A stretch of DNA of 64,000 nt from NCBI GenBank assembly GCA_017506865.1, contig JAFCMP010000060.1, forward strand, positions 1 to 64,000, in the 5' to 3' direction. The notes under the pieces were generated by a model that saw only the letters and a list, made by a program, of their open reading frames with translations, did not search any database and was not told the DNA's origin. Shown here in pieces: positions 3,805-58,039 of this stretch. The translations under genes were made by a program, and so were the position numbers. The stretch is from Tribonema minus. Lineage: Eukaryota; Sar; Xanthophyceae; Tribonematales; Tribonemataceae. Numbering within the stretch: position 1 is the stretch's first letter; each line of letters opens with the position of its first letter.

Positions 3805-4317
3805 TCAGCTCTCCAGGGGCTGCAGCGGCCGCAGCGGCGGCGGCGGCTGCGACTGCGCCTGCGCCGGCGGCGGCGGCATCCCTTTTGTAAGCGACGCGGC
3901 GGCAGCAGCAGCGGCGCCGCCGCCGCCGCCGCTGCCCGCGTTCGCCAGGTACAGGTGGCCATCGCGCCCCATTACATGCCTACCCCCCTCTGTAAGGTCC
4001 AGCCCCGGCAGCACGTCGCCGGGCTGCGCGCGCAGCGGCGGGCCCTTGGGCGGTGGCGCCGCCGCGGCCCACAGCTGGAAGCCGCCGCCGCGAGCGCCGC
4101 CCGCGGCGTACAGGTCCTGCCTGTCCGGGTGCACGATGGGCGCCTTGCACGCGAGGCACGTGCCGATGGCGGGGCCCGCGACGGAGACGGGGCGACCCGC
4201 GCCGTCCGTAAGCTGGCGGATCACGGCGAGCGCGCCCTCCGGCTCCGACTCAAAGGCCGTCGCGAGGTCATCGACGGTCGCGCTCGGCGCGCCGCGCTGC
4301 GCGGGCGTGCCGAGCGC

Positions 4318-4350
<33 letters not shown>

Positions 4351-6582
4351 GCTGCCGCCGCCGCCGCGGCCGCGTGCGAGCGCCGCGACGCGCTGCGAGA
4401 TCTGCGCGAGCCGGCGCTCCATGTCCTTGCGCGAGACCTTCTCCTCGAGCAGCGTGAAGACCTCGTCGCGCGTGACGCCGGCGGCGAGCGCGTCGGCGGC
4501 GGCGGCGGCGCTGCTGCGGCGGCGCCCGCCGAGCGCGCCGCCCTCGCCGAGGCTCACCACAAACTGCTTGAGCTCGAGAAGCTCGCGGCGCTCCGCCTTG
4601 CCCGCGGACAGGCGCTCGACGGCGTCCTGGAGTGTGCGCGTCTGGCGCTTGAAGTCGACCTCGTCGTCCTCCGCGCTCGTCAGCGCGCGCTGCAGGTGCG
4701 CGATGATCTCCTCGTACTTGGACTCGACGCGCAGGTCCAGGTAGCCCTGCGAACGAGCGCGCGGCGGCGGCACGGCAGCGACAGCGGCGACAGCAGCGGC
4801 GGGCGGCGGCGGCGGCGTGAGTGCGCTGCACACAGGAAAGGCGGCGGTGCGAGTGTGTGTTGTGCGATAGCAGGCGCTCTCTGAAGTCAAAACGCTGGAG
4901 TTTGATCGGAAGCATGTCGGTCGAACCACCGGCACGCTGCTTGGAGGACCGAAGACTCATGCTGTGTTGCTGGCGGGGGAAAGGGGGGGGGGGGACGGGG
5001 GCTCAGCGCTAGCTGCACATCTCCTACGTCACAGAAAACAAGTACTTCGAAGTACATTACCGCAACATAAGGGGTGGCCGTCAGACTCGCTCGATGACGA
5101 GCCCTCTGCATCACCGGCGCTCCTGTCTGCGATGACAAATCCGGCAATTGCCGCGCCGCGTTCTGCCTTCACTCGCCAAGCGCTGTGCTTCACCAACTGA
5201 GTCCATTTTGCCGCAGGCCTTTACCAGCCACGGCGCCCCTAATATCGACCGCTACGTTGCTGTGCGATGCCCGTGCGCTGGCAGCGGCGGCGCTCCGCAA
5301 CAGTGTTCCACATCATCGCCGCAGCCCTCGCCGCAAAACGGAAACGATGTGTCTCGAAATGGAAACGATGTGTGAAGCCCCGCATGCACGAGTCTCTCCG
5401 GGCCGCCATCACTCGGCTCGCGCGCTTCAAGACCAGCAGCTGGCCGGCCCGTGCTCTGCCTCATTCGCCTGCGCCAGCAGCAGCGCCCACCGACACTCGT
5501 ACTGCTGTGTCATCGGCTTGACTGCTGGCCGGCAGCTGGCTGCCTGATGACCGACGCCTCACCTTGCTGACGTCGAGCAGCAGTAAATCGGGGTCGCTGC
5601 CTGGCAGTCGCCGCCTGAGCCATGCCTCAACTTGCCAAGCAGCAGGAAATCGGGGTCGCTGCCTGGCAGCAGCCGCCTGAGCCATGCCTCACTTGGTCGA
5701 CCTTACGCAACAGTAAAACGGCGCCGACCGCTGCCTTGGCCTCACCCTGTTGACCTTGAGCAGCAGCTTGCCTTGCACGGCGTCGCCACCTGGCAGCAGC
5801 CGCCTGACCAATGCCTCACCTTGCAGCAGCAGCAGCCTGAGCGAGGCCTCACCTTGCCGACCTTGAGCAGCCTGGCAGGGCGCAGCAGCAGTGAGACGCT
5901 GTATGCGCGCGCGCAAGCCTGTAGAAGGTGCAAACAACATCCTCGCTGCGCGATCGCAGCCGCCTGAGCGATGCCTCACCTTGTTGACCTTGAGCAGCAG
6001 CTCACCCTGCACAGCCGATTGCGAGCAGCAGTCAAACGGCTTCGCTGCCTGGCAGCAGCCGCCTGGGCGATGCCTCACCTTGTCGAGCAGCAGCGCTCAA
6101 CAACACCCGATTGCCACCACTGGCTGCCCGATTGCTGGCTGAGCGATGCCTCACCTTGTCGACCTTGAGCAGCAGCTCGCCCTGCACGGCGTCGCCACCT
6201 GGCAGCAGCCGCCTGACCAATGCCTCACCTTGCAGCAGCAGCCGCCTGAGTGATGCCTCACCTTGTCGACCTTGACCAGCAGCTCACCCTGCACGGCGCC
6301 GCTGCCTGGCAGTCGCCGCCTGAGTCGTGCCTCATCTCGTCGACCTTGCACAAACAGTAAAACGGCGCCGCTGCCTTGACCTCACCTTGTCGACCTTGAG
6401 CAGCAGCTCGCCCTGCACGGCGTCGAGGCGCTCCGCGAGGCTCGCCTGCTCGCGCCGCACCGCATCCGCGCCGCCGCCCTGGTCGCTGTCCATGCGCCGC
6501 AGCAGCAGGTCCAGGTCCTCGCGCGCCGCCGCCAGTCCTACCTCCACCACCACGGCGGCCTGCGCAGGGCGTGGCGGCAGCA

Positions 6583-6627
<45 letters not shown>

Positions 6628-6924: not shown

Positions 6925-8022
6925 GGGACGCGGATTCAGAGTCAAATGTATCGTTCCGTGTCTGCACTTATGGGGCGCTGCTCATGCCGTACATCGGCTT
7001 ATTATAGTTTGTCGATGTCCACACGTGTGGCATTCATCAGTGTTGTTGTGCGGCAGCGGTATCGCAGCCAGGGCTGTCAGGACGTGACGAGGGCGTGACT
7101 GGCGGATCCAGGCACTTGACAATCGCGTCTGTAAGAGACGGCGCCGGGATGGGGGCTATTAGGTGTCGACGAACAACCATGTGCGCTGGGCAGCAGCGCA
7201 CCACGTGCGTGACGCGCGTGCACCCCGCTCTCCGTCAGCTCCGCGCCGCTGCCGCTGCGCACCCCGCTCTCCGCCAGTCCTGCCGCCGCCGCCGCTGCGG
7301 CAGCCCGCAGCGCGCCGTCAGCGACTGCGCGTGAAGCGGCGCGCGCGGGGCCTCTGCTGGCGCGCAGCAGCGCTCAGCATGCAGCAGCATCTCCGTACAC
7401 ACATCCAAGCCTTCCTCTGCAGCTGCTCCGCCGCGCGCGCAGCCTTCCGCCTCAGCCCCCCCCCCCCCCCCCCCCCCCCTCGACGCTCCGCCGCCACCGT
7501 GTCCCCTACGCCGTGCGCCGACACGACCCGCTGCTTCTGCGCGCCCCTTCCGCGCGCCGAGAAGCGACTGCGGACGGTCACCATCTTAGGTTTACTAATT
7601 GGGTTAAGGTAAGCGTTAGGGTTAGCATCGCCGTCCGCACCACCGTACGTGCGTATGCGCGCGCGCGCGCACCTTGCCCTCCAGCTGCTCCGCGTGCATG
7701 CGCACCGCCTTGGCGCTCGCGTCGCCGCGCAGCTTGCACTCCGTCACGAGCGCGTCGAGCCGCTTGATGACGTCCGGCAGCGGCAGCGCCTCCGAGGTAT
7801 CGTCCGGCGCGACCATGACGCACTGCCCCGGCAGCGCCGCGGTGGCCGCCTCGAGCGCTGCCGTGCGCGCGTCGAGGCCGGTGATTGCCACCTCTGTCGC
7901 ATGCGGCGCGGAGAGCAGCAGCAGCGGCGGCAGTGGCGGTGGTGAGGCTTGCGCACACATTGTGCAGATTTGACAGGCTTTGTCGTGCTCGTCACGAGAG
8001 CGCGGAGAGCAGCAGTAGCAGC

Positions 8023-8053
<31 letters not shown>

Positions 8054-9483
8054 GCGGCAGCGGCGGTGGAGCTTACGCAGACTTTGTGCGGGTTGGCAAG
8101 ATTTGTCGTGGCTCGTCACAATGAGGTGTGTGGCGCGGTGAAGCGGGTGTACGCGCCTGCGGTGCCTCGTACGCCAAGTTCAAATGCATGGAGCGGACGC
8201 TCCCGCAGCTGTCACCTCAATGTTGCCGCGTGCTGTCGGCTGCGCACTTGTCGTTCGACGCGAATATGCACGCATCCGGTGGCGCCGCAGAGTCGGCCTC
8301 CAGTGGTCGCAGCATGAGCATCGTGGCACCGCTCGGCACCTCAGTTGCCACAGGGCACGTCAACTGCCAACTTCACTTTACACGCGCGGGACGTCAACTT
8401 CCAACCGCACGTGCCCAGCAAGGTCTAGAGCTGTGGGCACGCGCGCTGCCGCGCACAGCTACGGCCAGTCGCCGTGCGCAGAGTGCCGTCGTACACGGCG
8501 CACAGCAGAATAGAGGCCAGCGCTTCGAGCCGCTGCCGCCGCAGCTGCCCAGCGGTGCAGCGCTCTTTGCTGTCGCAGCACTGCTGCATATAAATCTAAT
8601 TCTGCATTGTGACGACTTGTGTAGCGGCCGGGCGCAGGGCGCGCTCAAGGCATGCATCGAGATGTCGCCGGCAGCGTTGCACACACGCACACGCATACGA
8701 CTGTAACTTCAAGAAACGATCGATCGCGCGCCGCTGCACGTGCGCCTCATGTGCAACTTCAACACTTGAAGTGCATGTGCTGTTGCTCGCTGACACGCAC
8801 CTGTCTGCTCCACGTGGCCAGTGATGCGCGCATCCTGAGCCTCCACGGCGGTAGCCACTGAAGTCAACCGCTCTTCCATGGCTCCAATGCGAGACAGGTC
8901 CTCAAGTTTGTTGTTGAGGTTCGCCAGCGCGTCTTCCATGTCAGCCGCCTGGGACGTGGTGTTCTCCACGGCCGCTAGCCGAGACACGAGGGACTCCACC
9001 AGCTCTGCAGTTTTCCTGCTGCGGTGCTCCAGCAGGGCAAAATGGCTGCACACGGAACATGAACAGATGACAACAAGTCATTCGGGGGCATCATGTCGCT
9101 TGTGTGACTTGGCTGCAGCAAGCACTGAAAGATGTGCGTATTTCCGAAGCTAGGTGGGGCAGCCATCAGAGAAAGCTGACGACGCTCGTTCACAGGGCAG
9201 CTTTCATGTGTCCGACTCTCTCTGCTTTTTTTCTATTTCGCGGCAGAGCTGCGGCGACGCACCTGGCGGCTTCCAGTTTGAGCTTGCGGATCATATCGGC
9301 TTGCTGTTGTAGGGCGCACACCATGGTCTTCTTGCTCACTCGCGGCTTCACAAGCACAGTTTTCCCCTGCAGCTCCTGCAGCAGGTGGTCTAGCATGCCA
9401 TCCATATCCTCTGTCTCTGGCCGCTCCTCTGGGTAGCCTGGTGGCTGAGTGATCAGTGTCGGACTCATCGTGTCCGCGGTCAT
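3805..9483 (-). CDS. Coiled-coil protein, QRICH2/DUF4795-like, five exons, about 600 residues
   Basis: Exons 9483-9263, 9045-8801, 7893-7673, 6559-6386 and 4746-3805 join with matching phases (2, 1, 0, 0) and GT-AG sites, giving 600 codons plus a stop. The start is the ATG at 9483. Exons 1-4 encode helical, coiled-coil-like segments (for example TAELVESLVSRLAAVENT). Exon 5 begins GYLDLRVESKYEEIIAHLQ, continues in coiled coil, has a glycine-rich spacer, then a CLACKAP pair of cysteines near residue 485 and a C-terminal GRDGHLYLAN. A coiled coil followed by CxxC and a 'GxDGxxY' end is what I recall of the DUF4795 domain of QRICH2, a protein needed for sperm flagella; the family call is from memory. 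It shares a short promoter gap with the plus-strand gene at 9705. Intron 4 carries a tandem array of copies of the exon 4 donor end. Confidence 0.7.
5552..6385. repeat. Tandem array of decayed copies of the exon 4 donor end, in intron 4 of the DUF4795 gene
   Basis: Read on the minus strand, the real exon 4 ends with codons for VQGELLLKVDK followed by donor GTGAGG at 6385. At least eight further copies or part-copies of this edge lie downstream in the intron, near 6343, 6270, 6165, 6085, 5990, 5860, 5760, 5700 and 5570 (plus-strand coordinates). Most are followed by a GGCGGCTGCTGCCAG block that could act as an acceptor. Spacing is irregular, about 70 to 180 bp. Confidence 0.85.
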
Positions 9484-12926: not shown

Positions 12927-15900
12927 CTACGACAGCTCAAAGCCGGCGCCCGAGAAGATGGAGACGAGCAGCTTCTCGCGCATGGCCTTGTCGCTGGAGT
13001 ACGTGGGCAGCTTGAGCACGTTGAAGCACGTCGACGCCGACGGCAGGCGCTCGCCGTCGTCTCTGATGGGCACCCTGAAGGGGGGGGCGCAGGGGGGGGG
13101 GGGGGAGGGGGGGGGGCAGAGGAACGACAACAGGTAGGTGGTGAGCCAGCGAGAGAGGGGGGGAAGGGGGTGCAGAGGAACGACAGGTAGGTGGTGTGAG
13201 CCAGCATGATGGGCACCCTGAGGTGGGGGGGGGGGGGAGGGGGACGGGGGGATATGTGTACGCATCGTGAGGGTAGGTGTGAGCACCATGACGGGTGTGC
13301 GCTGACTTAGCATTTGGGTCAGGGTTAGCGCGAGGGGAAGTAAGCTTAAGGGTAGGGTCAGGGTTAGGGGTGTGTCGCCGGGGCTGGCGGGGGGGCGCAA
13401 CGAAAAGGGCGTGAAGGCGGGGGGGGGGGAAGGAGGGGGGGGGGCAGAGGAACCAGAACAGGTAGGTGGTGTGAGCCAGCGAGACAGGGAGGAAAGGGGG
13501 ATCAGAGAAACGACAGGTAGGTGGTGTTTTTCACTGTGGTCGAGACAGCGCTAGCCAGCTTGAACTGCGGATGTACGACCGCCAGACCATCCTGATGAAT
13601 GAGAAGTACGCCAAGCATGCCCGAGTGCAAGCCAACCACAAAGTCATCATTGCCAACGACCCGCCTTGCGACTTGGAGTTGCTATGCAGCAGGCTGTTCC
13701 ACATCAAAATAAGCACACCACTGGTGAAACCGCATGAGTGGGGAGCGGGGAAAGTGCCAGGAAGAAGCTGCTCGTGCCTGGCGCGACGGAGAATGGAGAT
13801 GCCTTGGCAGCTACTGAGGTCAGTAGATGAGGGCGTGCGTCATATACACGCGATTAGCGGAGCGCTGCTGCACTCGACGGCGACGGCAGTAGCAAAGGCG
13901 CGAGAGGTGATGTTGTGCTGGCGCCTGAGTCCTTGTTCCATCGCAACCGCTGCTACGCAACAAAATGATGAAACGCACTTTTGACACCGCACTCATCATA
14001 CAGGGGCTGAGGGAGCTGTTGCTGATGTGCACGTATAGAGGGGTTGCCTCGAGACGACGCATACTCGTCGAGCTGTCGATTGCAGCAGCGCTCCACTTGC
14101 GCGTGTATATGACGCTCTCATCTACCTCAGTTGCTACCAAGGCATGTCCATTATTTGTCGCGCTGGGCACGAGCGGCTTCTTCTTGGCACTCTGCACCGC
14201 TTCCCACTCATGCGGTTTCACCAGCGGTGTGTCTATTTTGATGTGGAACAGCCTGCTGCGTAGCAACTCCACGTCGCAAGGCGGGTCGTTGGAAATGATG
14301 ACTATGTGGTCGGCTTGCACTCGGGCATGCATGGCGTACTTCTCGTTCATGAAGATGGTCTGGTGGTCGTACAGCGGCAGTTGAAGCCGGCATCGGGCCA
14401 AAGGGGGGCAGTGACTACTAACAACAATAATGAGGCTAGAGAAGGAGCAGAGCGACGACACCACCACAGGCAGTAGCGGCGGCGGCGCTGCTCCAGCCGG
14501 CGGCGGCCAGAACCAGGCCATTTGCAGCACATCTTGAAGTACACAAAACCCCGAGATGCCATTTGGCGGCGGCGGCGTTTGAGTGGTTGTCGTTGCGACA
14601 CTTTCAGACTGTCATACGACATGTAGATTCCTTACAGCTAGATGCCAATCATCTGGGCTTTTTCGCGCCCTGAGCGAGAATTAATAAAAAGTACACAAAA
14701 AGTACACAACCACGCATGTCGTTAAGGAGAGTTTTTCTACGCGCATTGAGACACTTTGTCCCAACTTGCACGTAGATTCTGGTATGTAGCAAGCTCGCCA
14801 TCAATTGCCTGAGCTTTGTCGCGCCCCGAGCAACAATAGGCAACAAGAAGTACGCAACGCTCCAGGCGGGCCAGGGCGTTCCCAGACACCAAGGCAACTT
14901 CAAGTACGAAGAAATTCGCAGGTGCTCGCTCCAGGCTTGCCCGCCCGCGCGCGCGCGCACCTGTGTATCGTGAACGGCGGCTGCAGCGCCTCGAAGCCCA
15001 GCGGCGGCGGGCGCGCGCAGCCCGTGACGAAGCGCAGCAGCGCGGCGCGCTCGGCGGCGCTCATGGCGGCGACGACGCGCCAGAAGCGGCGCGCCGTCGC
15101 GTCCGCGCCGCCGCCGACAAAGCCGCCGCCGTACTGCGCGTGGCGGCGCAGGTCGTCGACGTCCATGGCGCGCCCGCTGCCGCTGATGAGGACCTGGCGG
15201 GGGGCACGCGCGCGCGCGCGTGTAGCTAGGGTTAGGGTTAGGGTGCGTACGTGGCTAGGGTCGGCGTTTGAGGCGGCGGGGATCCGGCGACGGTCGAGGT
15301 TAGAGTGAGGTTACAGTCAGTTGCACCTGGTAGGGGTAGGGTTCACGCGCATGCATGGCTAGGACCAGCATCAGCGGCAGTGGGGATCCGGCGACGGTTG
15401 CCGGATGCTGTCAGCCTGAGCGTCATCGATGAGATGCATGCGCGCGTCCAGTGCGCATTTGCGCGATGGACGGCAGGCCGTGCGAGTTTGTGCAAGCTCC
15501 TCGGCTGCTCTCGGGAGTGGCTTTCGGGGGTTGTGACTAGACTACTTTCGGGAGTGGCTCAGACTGCTTTCAGGGGTGGCGCGGCTGCTTTCAAGACTGG
15601 CTTGACCGCTTTCGGGACTGGCTCGAGTGCTTTCAAGACTGCTTTCGGGAGTAGCCCGCTTTCGGGAGTGGCCCGACCGCTTTCGGGACTGGCTCGACAA
15701 AGTTAAGCTTTCGGGCCTGCTTTCGGGACTGGCTCGACTGCTTTCGGGACAGCTTTTGGGAGTGACCCGGCCGCTTTCGGGACTGGCTCGACTGCCTTCT
15801 GCTTTCGGGACTGCTTTTGGGACTGACTCTACTGCTTTCGGGACTGCTTCGGGAGTGGCCCGACCGGTTTCGGGACTTTCGGGACTGCTTCGGGACTTTC

Positions 15901-18900
15901 GGGACTGCTTTCGGGACTGGCTCAACTGCATTTCGGGACTGGTTTCGGGAGTGGCCCGACCGCTTTCGGGAGTGGCTCTGCTGCTTTCTGCTTTCGGGAC
16001 CGCTTTCGGGACTGGCTCGACTGCTTTCGGGACTGCTTTCGGGAGTGGCCCGACCGCTTTCGGGACTGACTCAACTGCTTTCTGCTTTCGGGACTACTTT
16101 CGGGACTGGTTTCGGGAGTGGCTCGACCGCTTTCGGGAGTGGCTCTGCTGCTTTCGGGTGCTTTCGGGGGAGTGCTTTCGGGAGTGGCTCGGCTGCGTTC
16201 GGGTGCGTTCGAAAGTGCTTTCAGGAGCGCTTTCGGGAGCGCTTTCGGGAGTGGCTGGCCGCGCACATGGAGCGCGCTTCACTGACGGCGCCACGGCGGC
16301 GCACGCTGCAGCGAGCGAGACTGTTCCATGCTCATGCGCGCAGGGCCGTACGTCTGCCACGAGTGCAGTCACTCCCAGGGTTTCACGAGGGGAGCGAGAT
16401 GGGCGAGCGCCGCGCGCAAAGTGGCAGGCACCATGACATGCGCTCTCGTCGCGGAGTGGTCGAGGGCAGCACGCGGCAATGTCTGACTGTGACTCCGACT
16501 CCGATTCGCTGGTCATCCGGGGCCGCGGGGGCTCAGGATGCGACGGTTGGGGGTCTCTCGCTCTCGATGCACCGGTGGTATTCCGTCTAACGCACACAAT
16601 GCCATGAAATGGCGCACAGCCCGCGTATATCAACGCGTCATCAGGTTTTGTTGCAGGACACGCTGCATGGCGCACCTGACGCTGTCGTTCACAATCACTT
16701 CATCGCAGGGCTTCGCACCGCTGCGGTGTGCAGTGCCAATGCAGGGCGCGTAACGTTCTGCCAAGCGCGTTCCTGTACGGACCGCAACGCGCCCCCCCCC
16801 GCCGCCCCCGCGCGGTGGAGCGCTGCAACGTGAGTGCCGAGGCGCTCCACACAGGTGCGCTCACCTGCAATGTCGGCTGGTGAGGCTCCGCACAGGTGCG
16901 CTCACCTAGGGTTAGGGCTAGGTGCCCTCACCTAGGGTGAGTTAGCGATGCGTGTGCGCCTCACCTAGGGTTAGGGTCAGATTAGGTGCGCTCACCTAGG
17001 GTTAGGATTAGCGATGCGTGCGCGCCTCACCTGGAGCTCCGGCTCGCTGAACATCTGCAGCCACGCCGCGGGGATGACGGACCTCAGGCCGCGCACGAAC
17101 GCCTCGGACTGCGACCGCACCTGCAGGAGCAGTTGAAGTTGAAGGTGGTGAGAGGTGGGGCGGTCAGGAAGCGCACTTTGTGGGGGCAGGCTCACTGTGT
17201 CTGCATGCAAGCCCGCGCACGAACGCCTCGGATTGCTACCGCACCTGCAGCAGGTTAAAGTTGAAGTTGAAGATGGGGACAGCAACTGCGGTGTCAGGAA
17301 GCGCGCTTTGGGGGCAGGCAGGCTCGACCAGATAACTGTGTCTGCGTGCAAGCCCCGCGCACGAATGCCTCGGACTGCGACTACACCTGCAGCAGTTGAA
17401 GTTGAAGTACATCATGGAGACAGAGCTGGTGGGGGTCAGGGAACCTGCCAGACTAGTCAGTAGGGAAGCGAATTCTGATTCTACCTTTTTCCCCTTCTTA
17501 TGGCTCAACTGAGGACAGCGACCGCACTTGCAGCACTTGCGGTGGAGATGGCGCAGAGTTGGCGTGGTCAGAAAGTGCATTTCGGGGGCAGGCTTGGCCA
17601 GGACACCATGGCCACATGGTCATGCATCAAAGCTTGCAGGCTGCGGCGAGACAGAACAGACCATGCGCAGATGGCGAAGCACGTGCAAGTGCTACTTTGA
17701 AACGGACGGTTTGAGAAACGCAGACTCTGCCAGAGACGATGCTGAGTGTGAGGTGAGACTTTGAGGGGGAGTATGTGCCGACGAGCGGCGCCTGCTGCGC
17801 TGGCATCAGCGCACCCACTGCGTGGACCCCGCGTCCGCAAGCAGTCGTGCGCGCGCTCGCAAGCAGGGGGCCCACCGACAGGGACGCGCAGACAACCGCT
17901 GTTGTTCGGGGTCGCGTTCGTTCGTACCCGCTCGCGTGCGAGAGGACAGCTGGCGGCGACGCGCGCCGCAGACGCACGCCGCGCTCCCACGCAGTTCCAT
18001 CGTGTGATGTGATCACAGCGCGCTCCAGATATGAGGCCAGGCGGCGAGGGTACGGCAGTGGTGACTGCAGTGAGGGCAGATATATACATGTGATGGCCAT
18101 AGGTATCAGCCCCGCCCCGTTCATGCGCCGCCGCTCACATTGTCGACCCGGCGGTGCTTGGCGACGCAGCCCCGCGGTTCACGAACTCGAGGCGGTTGCG
18201 CGGCGTCAGCGAGGGTATGCATACATGCAATGGCGGTAGGTATGACATCACGCGCGCCGCCGCTCCTCACATTGTCGACCAGGTGGTGCTTGGCGACGCG
18301 GTTCACGTACTCGAGGCGGTTGCGCGACGTCACGGCGCGCTGAGCGCCGCCCGGCACGAGCTCCACCTCGCGCGCGGCGCCGAACGCCTCGTCCGTCACG
18401 GTGAACGACAGGCACAGGGTCTCGACGCCGTCGCCGTCGTACTTCTTGAGGAAGATGAGGTTGCTGCCGCGGGGGGGGCAGCGGGGGGCCGGGGGGGGGG
18501 TGGGGGGGGGCAAGCAGAAGCAGTGAGAGTCGTGGGGGGGGCAGGGGGGGGGGGGGGCGGGAGGTGAGACGCATGCCTCGCGTCGCCTCAGGAAGCAACT
18601 CGACGAGAATGAAAGCAGCAGGTTTGCGGTTGAGGTTGGGCTCCGCATCGCCTGGCGCGAGCACGTTCGAGACGAGATGTCAGCGCGATGAGACTATGAA
18701 GGAGGGGTAGCAACGCAACATGGTTCAGGAGGGGGGGGGAGGGGGGGTGGGGGTGGTACATGCAAGAGCACCTCAATAGCCCAGCATGAACACAGAAGCA
18801 CAACAAGCGCACCAAACCAACGCGCGGCGGCACGCCCGAAGCACGCGGCAGCAAGTCTTTGTTGCGCTGTTCCATCACTCGATAGTAGAATTGGGGCTGA

Positions 18901-21900
18901 GACTCTCAATTCGACCATGGTGCTGACCTAATCTGAGCCAGCACCGCGCATGCATTCGCGCGCGCCTTTGTCCGCTCACCCAGCAGAGTCATCAACAACT
19001 CTTACACCATGCGCATTACATCGAGCGCACGAGACTAGCTGGCCACACGGCCACAGTGCTCTATATGAACTTCAAGTTTGAAGCGCTGCGGCAGCGCTCA
19101 CCGGTACAGCTCCTCGTCCAGGCCGGCGAGATCGTGGAAGAGGTTGAGGAAGTCGTAGCCGCCGCGCATGAAGCCCAGGAAGAACGTGGCGAACTGCGGC
19201 TGCACGGTGATGCCCTCCAGCAGCGCCTGCGGCAGATGCAGAGTAGTGGTTTTAATTCTTGGAGATCTGACTGCTTGAAAAGGATAAAATTTGAATTGTC
19301 GCCGTCAGCGGTCTGTATGTAGAACGGACTCTGGTACAGCCAGGAGCTGCAGCGCCGATCCAAAACTGCTTAGAACCACCATACACTCCCTGCGGTGAGT
19401 ACATGCGTCAAGCCCAGGAAGAACGTGGCCAACTGCGGCTGCACGGTGATGCCGTCCGGTAGCGCCTGCGGCAGATTTGGGTTACGCTTTGAAGTTAAGA
19501 ACCGCGTCACACAGACGCTGGCTTAGGGTTAGCGGCAGCCCTCCACTGCTGCGCGATGTTCAAGCGCAAGCCCCTGAACTGCCGCTGCATTGGTGATACC
19601 CTCCAGCACTGCCTGCGGCAGACTTAGGGTTACGGACCAGGGTAAGAGCCGCGCGACAAAGACGCTGGCTGAGGGTTAAAATTGGCGGCAGCGCTCCACT
19701 GCAACGCCATGTTCAAGCGCAAGCCCTGGACTGCGGCCGCACGGTGATGCCCTCCAGGAGCGCCTGTGTCAGATGCAGATGTAGATCACAGATTGGGGGA
19801 AGTGGCGCGCAACACGGACGCCGCTGGCTGGGCCAGGAGCGGCACCCCGGAGGACTCTAACGCGTGCACCTGGTCCGAGCGCCGCACGACTCGCCACCAC
19901 ACACACCGCCTCTGCGCCTGCTATGTCGCCGCACGACATGGAGGCGCCCGCTGGTGCGTTGAGCAGCATGTACGCAGGGGCACGCAGTTCTGGCGTCGCC
20001 GCACCTTGCCCAGCACTGCCCCCAGGAACTCAAACAGGCGCATGGCGGTCCGCGTGCCGCACGACTATCGACCACAATGTGAGACACAAAGCTCTTGACA
20101 ACGCGTTGAGCGGTCGTGTCTATGCACTTCTCCGCCGCTGCACCTTGCCCAGCACCGCCCCCAGGAATTGAAACAGGCGCAAGGTGATCCGAGCGTCGCA
20201 CGATCATCAACCACAGTGTATGACGCATGGCGCTTGTCAGTGCCAGCTCTTGCGGTAACCCTAACCCTAACCCTAACCCTAACCCTAAGGCACCGCTCCC
20301 AGGAACTCGACCACGCGCAGGGCGGTCCGCGAGCCGCGTGACCCTCAACCACAATAGAAGCATGAAACCTGTCACCTGGACTGGAGCTCTACGATTTTTT
20401 GTATCGTTCCCATAAGACATACTTCGGAAGTAATGCCTTGAATAGCGCTTCAAGCGGTTGTCGATGCACTTTTCCGCCACCGCACCTTGCCCAGCACCGC
20501 CCCCAGGAACTCGAACAGGCGCAGGTGGTCCGCGTGCAGCGCCCCCGACGCGGGGTTCGGGTACAACAGGCCCGCGCGCATCCGGCGGAACTGGCAGTCG
20601 GCGTGCCGCACGACTGCCGACTTCAATGTAAGACACGACACGCTTCGAGCAATCACGTCGCCGCCACCGCACCTTGCCCAGCACCGCCCCCAGGAACTCG
20701 AACAGGCGCAGGTGGTCCGCGTGCAGCACGACCACCAACCAGAATGTAAGCAACAAGGTACTTGATAGCAACGACGGGAATACGCAGAGGAATGCGGTTT
20801 TGGCGAATGCAGCTTTCTCCCATCGCACCTTGCCCAGCACCGCGCCCAGGAACTCAAACAGGCGCAGGTGGTCCGCGTGCAGCGCCCCCGACGCGGGGTT
20901 CGGGTACAGCAGGCCCGCGCGCGTCTGGCGGAACAGGCCGCGCGCGGGGTCGAACGCGGCAGCGCTCAGGTCCACCCAGAAGTCCTTGAAGAGGCCGCCG
21001 AGGTCGATGCCGGACTCCTGGTGGCCGAGCGCGCTCGTGTAGACGACCTGCGTTGTTGGGGGGGGGGGGGGGGGGGGGGGGGCAGTGCTCAGCGCGCCGT
21101 GTGTCGCAGCGAAGCGACTTGCGCCGCGGGAGGTGCAGTGCTCAGGGGGGGTTACGTGTGCGGGACAGGGCGGGGGAAAGGGGGCGGTAGTCAGCAGCGC
21201 GCTGTGCGCGCAGCAAAGAGAGGAGCGTGCACTGGCACAGCGGACGGAGTCTATGTGCGGAGTGGTGCGCTGCTAGGCTTACCGTCAATCATCACCAGCC
21301 AATACTCGGCGCTGCCAACGCTCGGCGCGGCTCTCCTATGTACTGTCTCGGCGCACTGCTGTGGAGCGCTATTTCAGGCGCTCGTCAATAGCCTTGCATC
21401 ACACACTTCAAGCGCTCTGCATACATGCCGTTAAGGTAGTGAGTTGGGGCATATTCGGAAAGCAGGATATGTGGCTGTCGTAGAGGCTGCAGAGGTTGAT
21501 GCCGCCCTCCCAGAGCTGATGTATACATTGTCCCAAGTGCACGCCAATTTGTGAAGCGACTGCATACTTGAAGTAGCGGTGCCACGGCGCGCTAAACCCG
21601 CTCCCTCAGTCATTAACATACCGCCCTCACGCAAAGAGCACTTCGCCATGAGTGCTCCAAGTGCGCACTCGTCCTACCTGAAGCCTGACACAGGCACTTC
21701 AACATGTGCACTGTTAGTGCGTGCCGTACCTGAAGCCGCTTCCGCATCTGACCGCGCAGCCTGTCCATCGCTGCCAGACCGTCCTCCTGCAGCAGCAACG
21801 ACAGCAACAGCGCGCAGCCACGCATTAGCACTGGCCTCCCTGCGCAAGTTCACCGCACAGCGAGGCACGCGCATAGATTTACCGCCTACACGCGCAACGC

Positions 21901-24900
21901 AGCAGGCGCAGCGGCGCACACGGCGTGGCAGACTCGCGCTCTCCGCGCACGCACGCGACGCCGTCCGATCGCGGCGCTCGCGTCTGCATCGGGCATGGCC
22001 GCGCAGCGACGAAGCGCGCCGCCAGACATCGCCTGCACCGCTTTGGCGTACGCACCAGCGCGGCCTACCGCCCATTCCGCGAACGCGCTGCGCCGCCGGT
22101 ACAGGAAGCGCACATCAGGGTGCAATGTCAACTGCTGCTGACACTGCAACTTCAACTACATCAAAGTGCGACTGACGCTCTTTCGCGCGCGGGGCACGCA
22201 CCAGCGCGCGCCCGCGCCGCACGCGGATCGTGATCCCCGGCGTGTTCTCCGGCTGGTGCCGCGCGCGCACCGCGGCAGCCAGCGCGGCGAACGCGCGCAC
22301 GCGCTCCGCCAGCGGCAGCGCCCACGGCATGGCGGCGAGCAGCGCCTGCGCGCGCGGGGTCTGAGCGCGCACCTGTGACAACGCACGCGACGATTGATAT
22401 TGCATCCTGTTACGACTGTTTCAGTGAGTTCATGGCATGGCGCGCACCTGGGACGACGCACGCAACCATTGAAACTGCATCCTATTGTAAACTATTTCAG
22501 TGAGCTCATGGTGGCGGCGAGCAGCGGCTGCGCGTGCGACGTCTGCGCGTGCACCTGGAGCAGCGGCGCGCACAGCAGTGCGGCGCATGCGGAGTACTTG
22601 AGTGAGCTCCACGCACAGGGGTAAAATGGCGGCTGCGATCTAGGAGCTTTCAGCAAACAGCAGTCACAGCATGGCGGCGAGCAGCGACTGCGCGCGATGG
22701 GGAACGCGGCAGTTGAAGTTGAGCCCTGTTGAAGACGGTTGAGTGAGCTCCGTTGCAGCGTTGATGACAGGGGTGCAGTGGCTAGTACGATATAACAGCG
22801 CCTAATATGAGAGCGGTCACGGCACAACAGCGATGTGGTGGCTGACTATGCGTCTGGCCGATATAAGAGCGGTCTGATGGTGCGCTAGGCTGATCTACTG
22901 CATCGCGTTCACCTGCCGCTCGCCGCGTCACGATCGATGCATTACAAAGGTCATGCGCGGCACTCACGATAAAGCAAGTTGTATCAACGCGATCATGCAC
23001 ACGGCGGCACCGCAACCACACCGTGCTGCCGTGACTGCGGCGCTGCCGCTCACCGGCTCACCTCTGCCGCCAACTGCAAATCCTGGCACACTACTTGCCG
23101 CTTTGGCAGTGTCGCCAGTTATCCCCTGGGCCCCTCCCCTCCCCCCTATTTGACCCTTGGGTGATATGTAGAGGAGGAGTCCCAGGGGACAATGTCACCG
23201 GAGGGTTCACTCACAACCCCTTCTCCAGCCCCAGGACGATACATGAGGGGTCACAGCATCAGACCTGTGGTGATAAGCGGTGCGTCTGCTGCGCCAGACC
23301 CTATCGGTGCGGCTGGCGCGATGGTCCTCCCCTGCACGACGTCTCACCTCCCCGAGCACGCGCGGCGCCGCCGCCGCCTCCACCAGCCACGTCGCCGCCT
23401 CGTCGCCCAGCGCGCGCCGCGCCGTCCGCGCGTGCAGCCGCCCGAGCGCCCTCTCCACCGCCTCCGCCAGGAACGCGCCGAGCTCCGTCCACCCCTCCGC
23501 CGCCGCCGCCGCTGCCGCCGCTGCTGCCGCCGCCGCCGCTTCCTCCGCCTCGGCGGCGTCGGCGGCGGCGGCGGCGGAGCGCGCGCGCGGCGGCGGCGGC
23601 GCCTCCGCGAAGCGCGCCGCGAACAGGACGTGCTTGAGGCAGCGCGCGGCGCGGCGCAGGTGGTGCGGCGGCGGCAGCAGCGGCGTCGGCGCATCGCGCT
23701 GCGCGGCGGCGGCAGCGGCGTCGGTGCCGTCGCCGTGGAGCTCCCCGTCGTCCACAACCACCAGCGCGTGGCCGAGCAGCGCCGCGAACGCCGCCGCCGC
23801 CGCCGCCCACGCGCCGTCGCCGCCGCCGCTGCCGCCGCCGCAGGTCGTCTCTGTGACGGTGCGGACCGTGAGGCGGCGCGCGAGCGCCTCTTCACCGCCG
23901 CCGCCGCCGCCGCCGCTGCGGGCCAGCAGGTACGCCCAGAGGCGCGGGATGACGGCCGCGCGGCCAAAGCAGAGGGTGTTGGCGGCGGCGAGGCCAGGGG
24001 GGTTGTGCGCGTGCCGCCCCCACGCCCAGCGCCGCAGCAGCACGCACTGCGGACGTGGGGGGGGGGGGGGGGGGGGGTCAATGGGGGAGGTCGCCGCGCG
24101 TCATTACAAGGGACGCACGCCGCGCTGCGCTGGGGCGGAGCGCGCGGCGGGATGACGCTGCACACGGCCGAAGGGCCCCAATGATGATAATTGAGGTTTC
24201 ACGTGAAGCATATAACTCAACGCCTGCACTGGAGCAACGCAGGGTTGGTGCTGTGACCAAGCTGCGCAAGACACGGCGTTTGCGTTGCTGACAGGGCCAC
24301 GCGCGGCTGCAGGCCGCCGATTGTTTGCACTCGCACTTACACCATTTGCCAGAGCTGTGTGCGCTTCAACACCACTTAGCGTGCGCAACGCCACCACAAA
24401 GGGTCACACGACACTGTGCCAATACTTGGTATATTATACCTTCAAGTCATAAATATGATGTACCCTGCTTGCATCAGTTTTTGGATGCGGCGCGGATCGA
24501 TGACCACGAATCGCGCAGGCAGTGACGTACCATAAGCTCTACGATAGCGCAGACAGCGTCGTCGTCGTATGTGTGCTTGGGCGTCGCTGCTGCTGCCGCC
24601 GTCGCTGCTGTAGCCAATGAGTGGTCACTGCCGCCGCCACTGCTGCCGCCGGTTGCCGCCGCCCGCGCTGCCGCCGTTGTGTCTAGCAACCCGGTCCCAT
24701 TGGTAGCGCCGCTGCCGCTGCCGCCGCCGCCACGGCCGCCGCTGCTGCTGGACGCAAGACCGAGACGCGAAAGGCTCCAGCGCCGCCGCGCTCCCGCTGC
24801 CGCCGGCGGCGGCGCCGCCGCAGTCGCAGTCGCAGCCGTCGGCGGCGGCGGCACCGGCGGCGCCGCTGCTGCCGCCGCCTGCGCCAGCCCCGGGAACAGT

Positions 24901-44000: not shown

Positions 44001-47000
44001 AGGAGCTGCTGGCGGAGGAGGTATGTACGCGCGTGCGCCGCAGGGGATGTTACTGTCTTGTGAATGCATAACTGTTTCCCCCCCTCGCGCTCGCTTGTAT
44101 CAGGGTAGAGGGGTTGTGTGTCTGGGCAGTATGACGCGTGTATGGCGGAGGCGGCGGCGCTGTGTCAAGTGTGTATGTGTATGCACTGCATGTGTATGAT
44201 TGTGCAAGGGCGTGTTACCATGTGCTCTTCACCCAGGCGCAGTGCTGGGACAGACAGGTGCTGGAATGGCTCTGGAGAAAGCGCAGAGGCAATAGCAACC
44301 ATGCACGATGCCACCCCACCCCCTGGCCCCAATAGCAGTCCAGATGTCTGAGCAGTAGACTCCTCTCAGCCTCTTGTGGCACAAGCAAGGCAGTCAGTCC
44401 TACCTGGCGCAAGCTGAACGATGACTGTTTTGGCTTTTGCGATCCCTATCAATACCATGTGTGACCTTTTTCTGTCTCGTGGTAAGGGTGCTGCAGCCAC
44501 TATTGAAATGATTGCGTACATGGCAGACTATCAACGGCACATGCTGGGACGCCTTGCGGTGACTCTGCTAGCCGTTGCTGGTGATGTTGACCGCACATAC
44601 TACCCCAGTGGCCACTTTTATTGGCCCCATTCATTAGTTTTATCACCCGCTTCAGTTCCAACTTTCAGGCGCGCTGCGCGCGGTCTCTGCCGGCCAACTA
44701 GACGGCAGCATTGCGCTCAGCTGCGCCGCGTGACGCACACGTGACACCGCAGTCAAGTACCTGCTACACGCAACTTGCGTGCAAGGTGAACTTGAAGCGG
44801 TGACGTGCCCCGCTGAGCACCCGACGCGCGCCGCCGCCGCCGCTGCCGTGCGCCGCGCAGGTCGACTGGGGCGACGAGGTGTCGCGCGGCTGCGGCGTGT
44901 GCGGCACGCGCGACGGCGCGGACGCGGGCAACGTGCTCATGTGGTGCGACACGGAGGGCTGCGAGAACGAGGTGCACATGTGGTGCCTCCCCAAGCCGCT
45001 GCGCAAGGTGCCCAAGGGGGAGTGGCACTGCCCGGACTGCACGACGGGGCCGGGGACGGTCGCGGCGCTGCACGAGGTGCGTCACACTGCTTGAAGTCGT
45101 TTGGCTATTCAACATGGAGTGTGGGAGGGGGGGGCGACGGCGCCGTGGGGTTGACTGCGCGGTGAGACCGCGTTGCATTTGAGAGCCGTGAGTCTTGAGT
45201 ATGATGCTGGCTGTCTGCTCCATGGTCATGTGCAGCGCTGGACTGCTGGACTGCTGCACATGCAACCAATCACACAGTGTGGTCGATACCAGTGCTTGTG
45301 CTCCTGGGCAGCACCTAGCAGCTTGAATTGCCGTCAGCCCATCTCCTACTCTCCGCGTACTGCCGCAGCAGTAGAAGCCTGGTTGCCGAGAGCCAGGGTT
45401 GACATATACAGCCTACGCCGTATGAACCGTATATACCGTATGAGCGTACGTATGAGTCCCGCCAGGACGAATATACGGACGGTGCTTGCAGCAGCACGCC
45501 CGCAAGGGCTGGCGCCGCCGGGACACAGAGCACAGATGGTGATACAATGACAGCATTAAGCAATTATGTACGACATGAAGTGCGCAGCTCGTGCTTGACA
45601 AACGAAACCATGCTTTGGAACCGCATACAGCCCCCTCCACCCCACGAAAAGAAGTTCAACATGAAGTTAAATGTGAAGTTGAGGTTGAAGTTGGCGGCGA
45701 CCGTATATTGCGTACGTATTGGCTTCTCAGGGCGGTATACGTATATAACGAACGTATGACATAGAACCGACCGTATTTGTCAACCCTGCCAAGAGCAGGG
45801 TCATACGAGCGAAATTTGTCACGGAAGCAGAGATGCTCAGGCACCGCGCTTCGTGTCTGACCAAAACCGCTGCTGACGCTGCCCGCAGGCCCGCGAAGAG
45901 GCCATCAGAGTAGCGGCCGAAGTGGCGGCGGCGGAGGCGGCGCGCATCGCAGAGGAGGAGCGTGCAGCCGCGGAGGAGGCGGCGGAGCGCGAAGCGCGCG
46001 CAGAGGCCGTGCGGCAGCGGAAGGCGGACCGCGCAGCGGCGAAGGCGGTAGCGGCGGCGAACTACAACTCGATGCACTCGCGGCGCGCGCGGCCGCAGGA
46101 GGCGCGCGCCGCCGCTGCTGTCGCCGCCGCACCGCGTTCGCCGGCCGCGGAAGCAGCACCCGCAGGGGCAGCGGGCGCTCCGGCGGCGGCGCCAGCGGCG
46201 GAAGCGGCAGCGGCAGTGCCTGCTGCGCGCAAGCCGGGCGCAGTGACAGGGAGGAAGCGGCGCGCGTCTGCCGCCTTGCCAGTTGATGCCGCAGAGCATG
46301 CGCCTGTGGAGGCGGCAGGAGCAAGAGCGGCTGTCCCTGTGGGGGAGCCGGCGGCAGTGACAGGGAAAAAGCGACGGCGCGCGTCTGCCCCTTTGCCAGT
46401 TGATGAAGCAGAGCCTGCGCCTGTGGAAGCGGCAGTTGGGGGGGGAGCGCGGCGAAGATCGAACGGCGCAAAGCGCGCCCGAGTACAGGCTGTAGTGCCG
46501 GCTGCAGAAGAGGTTGAGGCTGCGGCGGCGGCAGCAGCACCGCCAGGCAGGCGGCGCAAGCGGCCAAGTGCAGCAGCAGCGCCTGCAGAGCCAGAGGCTG
46601 CGCTGCCGCCACCGCCGCCGCAGCGGCCAAAGCTCGTGTTGAAGAGGCAACGCAGCAAGGGCTCAGCAGAAACGCCTGCAGAGCCGGAGGCGGCGGTGCC
46701 GCCGCTGCAGCTGCCGCAGCGACCAAAACTTCTGCTGAAGAGGCAACGCAGCAAGGGCTCAGCAGCAACGACGATGAAAGAGCAGGAGGCGGCGGCGCCG
46801 CCGCCGCAGCCGCCGCTGCTGACAAAGCTCGTTTTGAAGAGGCAGCGCGGCAAGGGGTGGGTGGCCGTGCAGCATCCAGAAGAATCACCAGCAGCGGCAG
46901 GCGCGCCGCCGCCGCCTGCCGAGGAGGCGATGGAGGTTGCTGACCCGCCGCGCAGCAGCAGAGGCAGACCGCGCAAATCTGCTCGGCCATACTCGCCCGT

Positions 47001-53936: not shown

Positions 53937-56900
53937 CTATGCGCCGCTGCCCGGCGCGTCGCTGCGCGGGGAAGCCGCCGCCGCCGCCGCCGCTGCTGGC
54001 GCCGCTGCCGCTGCCGCCGCCGGCGCCGCTGCCGCCGTCGCTGGCGCCGCCGGCGTCGCCGCCGCCGTGGGCGGCGATCCGCTCGCTTCACCCCCGTGCA
54101 GCGCCGAGCCGCCACGCTGGAAGGCAGCGGCGGCCGATGGCGGCGACGGCGGCAGCGGCGGTGGTAGCAGCGGCTCGTCCTGCTGCGCGGCCTCATGCGC
54201 CGCGTCGCTGTCATTGAGTTGAGCGCTGCCGCCGTCCTTGGCGTCCTCGTCGTCCGACAGCACCGACGTCGCGCGCGTCGCGAGCGCCGGCGGCGTAGGC
54301 GCTGCCGCCGCCGCTGCCGCCGCCGCTGCCGCCACCGCTGCCGCCGCCGCCTCCGGCGTCTCCCGCAGGTCCACCAGCACCACCGTGCAGTTGTCCATGG
54401 AGCCGCGCGCGAGGCACCTGCCCAGCAGCGCTGCGCAAAGTGGCCCAGGCCCGTGGCGTGCGCCAGTTTGCCGCTGCCGCCGCCGCTGCCGCCGCCGCTG
54501 CCGCTGGCGCTGCCGCCGCGCTTCAGCGGCGACGGCACGTGCGCCGCCGCCGCCGCCGCCGCGGCGCGCAGCGGCGACGCCATGCTGCCGTGGCTGCCGC
54601 TGTTGCGGCTGCCGCCGCGGCTGCGCCTGCCGAAGAACGCTGCCACGCCCGAGGGCGGCGACGGCGCGGCCGCTTCCGCTGCCATTAGCTCGCAGAGGAA
54701 GTCGCACACGTCCTGGTTCGACATGACGTCAAAGACCTGAGGGAAGGAAGCGGGGGGGGGGGGGGGGGGGGGGGGGGTTCGTTGAGCTCTCTTGCGTTGA
54801 AGTTGAACCTGCCCGTGCTTGAGACTTGACACGGGAATGGATCACATGCAGTGTGTTGTTTTATCGCATGAGAGCAACTGCGGTAAAACCGGCGCTGCTG
54901 AAAATCGGGCGCAGTGCTGCTGACGCACACTGTCACCCAACTTCTGAAGGCGCCCATGCGTGCTGTACAGTAGCAGCGCTCAGGGTCAGGGCACATGAGT
55001 GTCGCGCAGCCGCTTCCTACACATCGGCAGCAGCCGTGCAAATGGCAGCATGCGCCCCTTGCGCTGCGAACGCGCCACTGCTGCCGCCGCTGCCGCCGCA
55101 GCGCTCAGACAACTGCATGTCGACCGAGAGCCGCTCGCTGCCCGCAGGCAGCGCGCGGCGCATCACAGCGGCGAGACGTACTGGACACATGCCGCCGCCG
55201 CCGCCGCTGCGGTGCGCGGCGCGTGTCAAAACGCGAGAAGGCTCTGTCTGAGCAATTCCCATCTATGATACGTGTTCCGGCACTCCGCCAGCCCCGTTTG
55301 AGGTTATAAACGGCACCGTGGGAAAACAAGCAAGGCGCGCGCGGGGGGCATGTGAAAGTTAGATGCGTGCTCACCCCGTCGCTGTGGGAAACAAGCAAGG
55401 CGCGCGCGGGGGGCACGTGAAAGAGAGATGCGTGCTCACCCCGTCGCTGGCGAGCACCATGAACTGGTCCTCCGGGTGCCGCTCCATATGTACGATTGTG
55501 GGCTGCGGCGACACTATCTGCTCCTCCGGCGGCCTGTCGGCGGTGCGAGCGCAGCGCGGGGGGGCGGGGGGGGGGGGGGGGGATCAGCGCTGTCGCAGCG
55601 ACCGTGTGGCTGGCTGATGATCAGAGGCGTCTGGTGGGGGGTGAGACTTGAAGTTCATACGCGCCTGTGAAAGCGCCGGCGGACTGTCAAAGGCAAACCA
55701 CCAACAGCCGGAGAGCATGATAAGGGGGGGCTGGTTTGTGCGTGTGCTGCGGGGGGGGCGGGAAGGGGGGCGGCGGGGCGCGCGCCACACACTGCATATT
55801 TCAACGCCAAGCCTCGTGTGGCCATCTGCAGGTCTCGGGGTTGAAAGTCCCGAGCGTGCGCACACCTTTCCAGCTGCTGCCAGCAAGGCCATCATTATGA
55901 CGTTAGAGCACAACATCAGAGCGCGCTCACGTCAAGTCTGTGGGCTTCACCTACCCGATAAGTTCAAGTGATGCGCCTTCAGTCAAAGCTGACTGCACCC
56001 CCGCCCCAACCCCCGTGTGCGCAGCACCACCGTACCGTCACCGAGAGCCCCCGCGCCACGACAGGTACTCTTCAGCACACAACGCCATGCGCCGCCGCCT
56101 TTACGCGCCGCCGTCTTCCGTGGCAGCGGAGCGCCTCTCAGCAGCGCCCCCCCCCCCCCCCCCCCCCCGGCCGCCAACCTCAACTGCGACGCACCTCCGC
56201 CGGTCCGCCTTGAAGTGGAAGTCGCCGAGCGTGCGCGACGTCGCCATCGCCATGCAGCAGCCGGGCGCCATGACGCGCGCGACGCGCCCCGCGCTCGCGT
56301 CCACGAACCCCCCCGCCGCGCGGATGCGCGCCGCCTCCGCCGCCGCGTCCGGCTTGTGGTCCGCGCTGAGCGCGACCGCGCGCCCGCCGCGGCACAGCAG
56401 CGCGCGCGAGTCGCCGCAGTTGGCGACCCACAGCGCGCGCGCTGCGACGACGGCGCACACCGCCGTCGTCCCGTCGCGCGCGCGCGCCTCGCGCAGCGCC
56501 GCGTCCACGTCCAGGAAGCCCTGCGCGTCGGCGGCGGCGGTGGCGAGCGGCGTGAGGACATGATGCTCATCCTGAACGGGCAACATGCTAGGGGCTATGG
56601 ACGAGGCACGCGATGGTTGTCGTGTCGCAAATGAGCGCCTCGCGCAGTGCCGCACGAAGCCCTGCGCAGCGGCGGCGGCGGCAGCTGCGGCGGCAGCGCC
56701 AAGCGGCATGAGGAGGCGATGCAGCCAGCTGCTGACCCTACCCAGGAAGGTAATGTGCTAGGGGCTATGAGTGGAGCATGCAAAGGTCGTCCTGTCGCAA
56801 AAATGCGCCTCGTGCAGCGCTGCGGTCACGTCCAGGAAGCCCTGCGCGCAGCGGCGGCGGCGGCGGCACACGTCGCATGTCATACCGAGCCAACTGTGCT

Positions 56901-58039
56901 TGCCCTGAAGCCGCAGATGGCCTGCTAGAGCGTATGAACGGCTTACGCGGTGGTCGCGCAGCAGCATGCATGCAATGGTGCAAGCGTGCCGTCAACGCGT
57001 GCAGAAAGTCCAAGCAGCGGCGGGAACGGCGGCGGTGGCGGCGGCAGCGGCAGTGGCGCGGAGCGGCGGGCGCCACATGAAGTGATGCAGCCTACTGCTC
57101 ATCCTGAAGCCTCAGGTACCTTATGCGTTGGAGGCTACGTGCGGGCCACGCGGAAGCCGTACTGTGGCGTTCACTCACTCCAAGGCACTGCTTCAAGACC
57201 TGCGAGCCCCTGAGTGAGCCGCTGAGGAGCGCCCCCGCACTCCCTCCAGTCGTGTTTCATGCTGCACCACGCAAGCTTGTTAACGCAGTCCGCTTTGATC
57301 TACGTGCTCGCAGAAGCGGGTGCTCCAATGCTTCATGTCTGGCACCCCCCCGCGGGCACCTGCGCGAGCGCTGCCTCCATACTCCCTGCGCTCTGGGCGT
57401 CAGTGCAAGTGACCAGCGCGGGTGTGCGCTGCCACGCGCGGCGTGGTCCCACCTCCCTAAGTGCGCCGCAAAGCAGCACGTTCGCGTATCCGAGCAACTG
57501 CACCATGCGCCCAGCTCTACTTCAACAGGCAGGCTCGGATCCGTGGGTCCTCTGCACACCCTGCATGGGCCCCTCCTCCCCCCCCCCCCCCCCCCCCCCG
57601 GTGCACATGGCCGCGGCGCGCAACCCCGCACGCCGCCGCCCCCGCACGCGCAATGCCCTCCGCCCGCCTCACCGCCAGCAAGTATACACCGCATGCACGC
57701 AGCGCCCTCCCTCGCAATGTACTTCAAGTTGAGGCACGCAGGCGCGCGCGCCGACGGACGCACCTGCACGAGCGCCGCCTCCGCGTCCCCCGCGCCCCAC
57801 GCCTTGGTGCGCAGCACCGCGGGGAACATGCGCGCCGCGGCGAGCGTCGCGCTCACGCTCCCCGAGTGCCCGTCGAAGACGCCGCACAGCAGCACGTCCG
57901 GGGCGTCCGGCGCGCCCGGCAGCGCGACCGCGACGTCCTCCTGCGTGCGCCGCCAGCCCTGCATGCGGCACGCGGCGGCGCTCACGCGCAGCGCGGCGTG
58001 GCGCACGACCTCCAGCTCCTTGCGCTCGTCCGGGCCGCC
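53937..58039 (-). CDS. PP2C-family Ser/Thr protein phosphatase, four supported exons, 5' end uncertain
   Basis: Exons 58039-57764, 56520-56195, 55533-55440 and 54736-53937 join with phases 0, 2, 0. PP2C motifs appear in order: GWRRTQED, GVFDGHSG (metal-binding Asp), DGTTAVCAV, ANCGDSRALLCRGG, LSADHKPD, ATSRTLGDFHFK, MVLASDG/VFDVMSNQDVCDFL, and GSMDNCTVVLVDL (the last metal-site Asp). It therefore looks catalytically complete and would need Mg or Mn. After the catalytic domain comes a tail rich in alanine, proline and acidic residues. The last exon is 800 nt, one base short: the frame slips at about 54428-54436 between GLGHFAQ and LLGRCLARG. The N-terminus either continues in frame upstream to the ATG at 58312 (an arginine-rich 91 residues) or lies in a separate exon; the GCGCGCAG site before 58039 favours the latter. 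Confidence 0.88.
55316..55448. repeat. Tandem 65-bp duplication spanning the PP2C exon 3 donor
   Basis: GGGAAACAAGCAAGGCGCGC to GATGCGTGCTCACCCCGTCG is present twice, at about 55320-55384 and 55386-55449. The unit includes the last bases of the exon, the donor and about 55 bp of intron. The copies differ at only a few positions, so this is a young event. Confidence 0.93.
56521..57130. repeat. Three or four copies of the PP2C exon 2 acceptor edge
   Basis: The exon edge (real copy 56465-56520) recurs at about 56605-56680 and 56780-56855 (GTCGCA.A, GCGCCTCG.GCAG.GC, CCAGGAAGCCCTGCGC), and more weakly at 56955-57030. The intron block GTGCTAGGGGCTATG repeats at 56585 and 56756. Unit about 165 bp. 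Confidence 0.85.

Follow-up and report, generated by a model that had tools for sequence, protein, structure and literature searches.

Introners alter intron content genome-wide by placing one element in many genes (PMC9860276), and tandem duplication of a segment that carries splice signals can produce a new intron together with an exon, as in the Rogers AGGT model and in the potato RdRp gene, where the duplicated unit has an intron-exon structure (PMC4974935). In Chlamydomonas and Volvox, introns have the highest tandem-repeat density, repeats are more frequent near intron ends, and the top intron motifs are GT/AC dinucleotides (PMC3887541). In human, repair-mediated proximal duplications are local, with a mean of 162 bp and a median of 147 bp, and exons and splice sites are among the features duplicated (PMC2671141). 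Fill-in by CST-Pol alpha-primase, a telomere-linked complex, yields small direct tandem duplications at induced breaks with 3' overhangs in mouse and human cells (PMC8355091). Here we describe introns of the xanthophyte alga Tribonema minus that contain tandem, partial copies of their own exon-intron junctions, beginning with a HECT-domain gene in the first 64,000 nucleotides of contig JAFCMP010000060.1 (assembly GCA_017506865.1), the stretch referred to below as the window.

Junction copies were identified in the window by self-comparison, direct sequence reading and a self-trained gene finder, which together confirmed a first-pass annotation that had reported them; they occur in the HECT gene, in the first minus-strand gene and in a PP2C gene. 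The scan was extended to 200 kb of a second contig (C1), giving 264 kb of scanned sequence (window, C60:1-64000), and genome-wide matching covered 158 Mb in 554 contigs. Gene models, on which all counts depend, came from a purpose-written ab initio finder trained on the same sequence and on dynein exons; it learned donors resembling AG/GTGAGT and acceptors ending in GCAG/, where the slash marks the splice site, a consensus similar to that of green algae. Repeats with a low-complexity fraction above 0.3 or a bit score below 50 were discarded. A junction was called anchored if it was a predicted splice junction whose exon runs at least 20 bp past the copied block.

The HECT gene lies on the minus strand and carries junction copies in the introns at 17121-18270, 19227-20828 and 22373-23347. 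Read 5' to 3', the intron at 19227-20828 holds the outer donor, five partial donor-edge copies, three acceptor-edge copies and the outer acceptor. Its outer donor belongs to the UBE3C-like HECT-domain exon at 20829-21047, which ends in ...VLGK, the intron starting from 20828. Each donor-edge copy consists of an exon tail, GT or a decayed GT, and an intron head. Copy 1 (20661-20727; exon tail plus GTGCGG) shares 95% identity with the real edge across 64 bp and 100% with copy 2 across 67 bp. Copy 2 (20464-20595) is the longest, is 92% identical to 20807-20938, and is miscalled as an exon by the gene finder. Copy 3 (20290-20355), recovered by self-comparison and by the genome-wide unit search, is truncated, and an interstitial telomeric run at 20256-20288 (TAACCC on the plus strand) lies at its truncated end. 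Copies 4 (20109-20239) and 5 (19984-20100) were recovered by self-comparison. The stretches that precede the exon copies, ACATTGTGGTTGATAGTCGTGC and its relatives, are mutually similar, so that the repeating unit, in head-to-tail order, comprises both the exon tail and intron sequence. The acceptor-edge copies, each supported by self-comparison and sequence reading, lie at 19730-19784 (the most distant from the exon), 19576-19622 and 19410-19476, the last matching the real edge at 94% identity across 67 bp; the next HECT exon (19102-19226) follows with the outer acceptor CCGCAG/GCGCTG.

When the six HECT exons are joined at their outermost sites, a single frame results that is open to the terminal stop. 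The joined product matches PF00632 at positions 3-306 (E=1.5e-85), and its best solved relative is UBE3C (6k2c), ungapped across the LGK/ALLEG junction. Because the outer join restores a complete UBE3C-like HECT domain, the inner copies look like decoys. The intron at 17121-18270 has a donor-edge copy at 18125-18208, with 62 bp of exon, of the edge at 18254-18332, and two acceptor-edge copies at 17210-17423 of the edge at 17086-17120, all supported by self-comparison, the anchored test and reading. In the third intron, self-comparison found an acceptor-edge copy (22440-22516) of 22365-22442 with a 75-bp period and 8 bp of exon. Elsewhere in the HECT gene, a minisatellite of GCTTTCGGGACT-like units occupies window 15500-16263 and has no tie to a junction. 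On C1, the intron of a Rab7-like gene between VVLANK and VDLVKEG likewise holds donor copies followed by acceptor copies, and the outer-site join matches Rab7 across the junction. Homology thus indicates that the outer sites are the correct ones in the HECT and Rab introns, the two of the 42 events checked in this way.

Across the scanned sequence, 69 local direct-repeat clusters were found, and 42 of them (10 in the window, 32 on C1) include an anchored junction; 23 are at donors and 19 at acceptors, with one edge copied per event, whereas a duplicated alternative exon would have both of its splice sites copied. The phenomenon therefore extends past the window, and both kinds of edge are copied, as had been proposed. 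The earlier figure of about a dozen introns in the window comes near the ten anchored clusters counted there, one of which (46195-46435, in repeat-rich coding sequence of a chromatin gene) does not convince. At least 3 of the 42 records (window 20485, window 5852 and C1 99867) mistake an array copy for an exon; in those three, the exon share and period are copy-to-copy values and the real edge still lies inside the cluster. Probes of 60 bp taken from junctions (match score at least 36; introns below 250 bp and low-complexity probes left out) had a match within the adjoining intron at 28 of 160 donor and 15 of 139 acceptor junctions. Against other introns the rates were 0.5% in 955 donor trials and 0 in 828 acceptor trials, which excludes chance as the source of the junction copies. 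Recognizable arrays make up 22.4 of 146.4 kb of intron (15%), and 25 of 67 non-exonic clusters contain no anchored junction; arrays are present as first described, and the statement that introns are built from such copies was too strong.

Junction clusters account for 42 of the 67 (63%), compared with 36.5% when the annotation was shifted, and none of 400 shifts gave a value as high. For two-copy clusters the corresponding figures are 17 of 35 (49%) and 24%, reached in 1 of 400 shifts. A null with uniform placement, in which exon-internal events were rejected, predicts 20-22% junction events, so that the excess is about 1.7- to 2.8-fold depending on the null. Simulated detection bias toward exon-containing copies was 1.07-1.29 in three settings, and the junction share stayed at 64-71% across five filter settings. 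On these ab initio gene models, a junction preference of about two-fold is likely.

The copied units have a characteristic geometry. Unit length is 65-212 bp in 38 of 42 events, and periods fall between 110 and 190 bp in 29; from these period lengths, a preferred period of nucleosome length is offered as a remark. In 29 of the 42 events, copies align over the intron part of the unit with z>4, so that a head-to-tail tandem structure, intron part included, is found in most. The term junction copies therefore needs qualification: edges are indeed duplicated, as parts of head-to-tail blocks that span the junction and repeat intron sequence as well. The copied exon part measures 8-93 bp and is at most 65 bp in 37 of 42 events, while 39 of the 42 exons measure 90 bp or more; breakpoints spread evenly over the exon are rejected by a Kolmogorov-Smirnov (KS) test (p=8e-7). 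Probes from 30-90 bp inside the exon matched in 1 of 143 cases after acceptors and in 16 of 144 before donors, and acceptors therefore show the sharper limit on the exon share. Two accounts are available: the breaks themselves may gather close to the junction, or copies that include more exon may be used in splicing and then removed; the short share suggests selection by splicing. Splice sites compete with one another, and removal of copies with long exon parts agrees with this.

We next consider the fate of the copies. Divergence is graded from copy to copy, as first noted. For pooled comparisons, 38 of the 42 events were usable (nE at least 15), and 26 were well aligned (in addition, z>4 and nI at least 20). 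In the latter set, divergence is 11.5% for the exon portion and 19.0% for the intron portion, near the prediction for one constrained exon copy with everything else free. GT or AG is kept in 37 of 42 nearest copies. Copy donors score below real donors (median 5.17 versus 5.78, p=0.002), and copy acceptors score the same as real ones (4.90 versus 4.89, p=0.35). Only 8 of 42 unit lengths are divisible by 3, which gives no sign of selection for inclusion and led us to reject frame-preserving insertions. Signs of copy use sought in divergence, site scores and frame across the 42 events were not found, and the copies appear to decay roughly as unused DNA.

With regard to origin, genome-wide unit searches were run for two units, and the best candidates were scored. 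The HECT unit gave 5 matches, all in its own intron or at its own exon edge, which bears out the proposal that introns copy edges of their own; the PP2C unit gave one match, itself. Within the 264 kb, 58 of 69 clusters are without a match at any other place, and 11 have some match. An introner origin was rejected, the HECT and PP2C units being private to their own loci, unlike an element shared by many genes, and the copies adjoin the real edge within introns longer than themselves, rather than forming whole introns. In contrast to the Rogers model and the potato gene, where a new intron and exon arise, an existing intron is lengthened here; the unit spans a pre-existing edge, and in HECT and Rab conserved protein sequence continues across the outer junctions. 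The arrays resemble the human proximal duplications in being local and of similar size. They differ in the direct orientation and frequent amplification of the copies in this alga, and in frequency: 4 partial exon/intron donors per 824 duplications in human compared with 42 of 69 clusters with a junction here, rates that are not directly comparable because this genome is far exon-denser. As in the green algae, repeats occur near intron ends; in contrast to their dinucleotide motifs, the unit here includes an exon edge, which is not mentioned in the sections of that report consulted or in those of a comparative genomics study of Chlamydomonas (PMC8226300).

Telomere-like sequence accompanies the arrays. 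TTAGGG-like runs occur at 44 loci in the 264 kb, of which 41 are in introns, 3 are intergenic and none is in an exon (intron versus intergenic, binomial p=0.003). TTAGGG looks like the telomere repeat because contig C2 begins with a long run of it, and the 44 loci are thus interstitial telomeric sequences, that is, short runs of the telomere repeat away from the ends. Telomeric 9-mers reach 4.3 per kb in arrays within introns, 1.4 in the rest of the intron sequence, 0.2 between genes and 0 in exons. A genome-wide search with (TTAGGG)5 returned thousands of overlapping matches, telomeres counted in. The idea that the runs serve as branch points was rejected, since a reading by eye found both orientations relative to the gene about equally often. 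Interstitial telomeric runs have been described as break-repair scars in mammals, with a direct target duplication at a few horse loci (PMC7215372).

The reading we favor, with a probability of about 0.68, is that these arrays are short tandem duplications, probably left as scars of break repair, tolerated in introns and filtered by splicing for a short exon share. Short DNA segments would be duplicated head to tail; a segment spanning a donor would yield exon-edge/intron-edge-edge/intron, and one spanning an acceptor the mirror image. With the outermost site in use, the protein would remain unchanged and the intron would be longer by one unit, while the inner copies would be decoys that decay and re-duplicate into arrays. 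Repair of staggered breaks may have left the duplications as scars, and a copy that includes much exon would presumably be removed because splicing would use it. From the match in size to the human duplications, the telomeric runs and the duplications made by CST-Pol alpha at induced breaks in mouse and human cells, we infer that break repair is the favored source. Several observations weigh against this reading. Break repair by itself leaves the favoring of junctions unexplained. As regards the junction preference itself, the contrast between donor and intron probes is modest (28/160 versus 13/160, Fisher p=0.018). In 7 of 42 events the nearest copy has an unrecognizable intron part (z<2). 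Among 8 clean contiguous two-copy pairs read by eye, six overlap by 1-7 bp, which gives no clear breakpoint signature of microhomology or of non-homologous joining. Telomeric runs are not enriched in introns of human or horse (PMC7215372). Differences over all 38 usable events (9.6% exon, 20.1% intron) lie at the lower edge of the model for unused copies. Finally, an acceptor copy in a WD40 gene (C1:546239-546507, L006) is identical at 63 of 63 bp with clearly diverged flanks and is poorly explained by plain tandem duplication. Gene conversion or selection that holds exon copies alike was considered and set aside on the 26 well-aligned events, whose ratio of differences fits one constrained and one free copy; it may still play a part, in view of this extreme case and of the position of the 38 pairs.

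A further count against the junction preference, that acceptor-junction probes matched about as often as intron probes (15/139 versus 13/145), speaks for neutral geometry, with tandem duplications placed uniformly and many of them crossing junctions without preference because units and introns are of similar length. The nulls described above already produce 20-22% or 36.5% junction clusters in this way, and ab initio models may miss or invent exons; the actual share of 63% (two-copy clusters, 49%), a level that 0 and 1 of the 400 shifts attained and that was stable across filter settings, together with an exon share far from uniform, makes this account rather unlikely. A tentative alternative, somewhat more plausible, overlaps the favored reading and adds a cause for the preference: junctions would be mutational hotspots, for example through transcription- or R-loop-linked breaks at the step in GC content from 72.7% in exons to 57.2% in introns, repaired with duplication and telomerase insertion. 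The junction excess and the concentration of telomeric 9-mers in arrays agree with this, but the latter derives from about nine clusters read by eye, and selection could equally yield the short exon share. We regard as possible, yet doubtful, the stronger proposal that junctions are preferred sites of staggered breaks where repair duplicates about a nucleosome length and sometimes involves telomerase. On this proposal, repeated copying of the splice sites would extend an intron from each end toward its middle, and splicing would reliably pick the outermost of near-identical sites. That the copies are selected decoys or regulatory pseudo-exons is improbable: splice dinucleotides are largely retained and exon parts are up to 100% identical, but decay is about that of an unconstrained copy, with lower donor scores, unchanged acceptor scores and frame seldom kept. 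Least credible are a mobile element and an assembly artifact. A dispersed repeat of about 140 bp inside some arrays and the 11 clusters with matches elsewhere would suit the former, against the locus-private HECT and PP2C units and the 58 unmatched clusters. As to the latter, intron parts that can be aligned diverge by as much as 29% and contain indels and inserts, HECT is intact through its outer sites, and dynein loci on other contigs look alike.

Other genes of the window contain further examples. In the first minus-strand gene, a donor-edge copy array at 5524-6425 (minus strand; GAGCTGCTG..AAGGTCGACAAG/gtgagg) gives 20 pairwise matches, several copies being miscalled as small exons, and a two-copy edge duplication in an alanine-rich stretch (7903-8119, minus strand) is a weaker case. 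At 55318-55449 in the PP2C gene (minus strand), two tandem copies of 66 bp with 94% identity span the donor at 55439 and include 10 bp of exon. Two weaker candidates in that gene are decayed copies at 56586-56867 of the exon start near 56465-56571, which are not anchored, and a decayed copy (58633-58700) of the acceptor edge 58095-58168, 538 bp off. Long C runs on the sense strand lie a few bases 5' of predicted acceptors at window 21058-21082 and 54752-54777. Pfam confirms the HECT, PP2C and bromodomain-PHD chromatin genes named in the first-pass annotation; its DUF4795 assignment was not confirmed, a weak DUF7310 coiled coil being the one Pfam hit in the scanned exons of that gene, nor was paraoxonase, with no hit in the scanned fragments. 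A Pfam check of 20 array-flanking exons, a subset of those on hand, gave 15 family matches at E at most 0.01, some below the curated cut-off.

Outside the window, dynein loci on further contigs contain 11 distinct clusters after removal of 5 rows from overlapping loci, and 7 of the 11 include a predicted junction when read by eye, without the anchoring test. Genome searches gave 17 dynein heavy-chain matches and 92 chlorophyll a/b-binding exon matches, as befits a eukaryote that is photosynthetic and flagellated. The gene with coiled coil and WD40 repeats at C1:542244-553335 (L006-L007), ATG16-like by eye, has 9 junction clusters in 17 predicted introns. At G000:C246:700950-701488, kinesin profile positions 268-311 appear twice, about 170 bp apart, possibly as another edge copy. 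The dispersed repeat of about 140 bp (L005:6990-7135, C1:536990-537135) is present in a number of introns and within one of the junction arrays, with 40 matches scored from 2511 first-look candidates.

Local duplications of similar size and tandem repeats near green-algal intron ends are already published. Our literature search found no report of introns with arrays of their own exon edges at such density; as most subscription papers lay outside the search, novelty is unproven. The lengthening of introns by local junction duplication, as first suggested, holds in the window and is seen likewise on other contigs. For gene finders the arrays are a warning, as several copies were called as exons by the one used here. 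For the genome itself, they offer a concrete, datable route by which introns would lengthen without transposons. Should the rate in the scanned sequence apply to the whole genome, duplicate donors or acceptors that are nearly identical and keep their native flanks would be present in a very large number of introns. Splice-site choice could then be followed as a natural experiment, with the spliceosome's selection among duplicate sites read directly from RNA.

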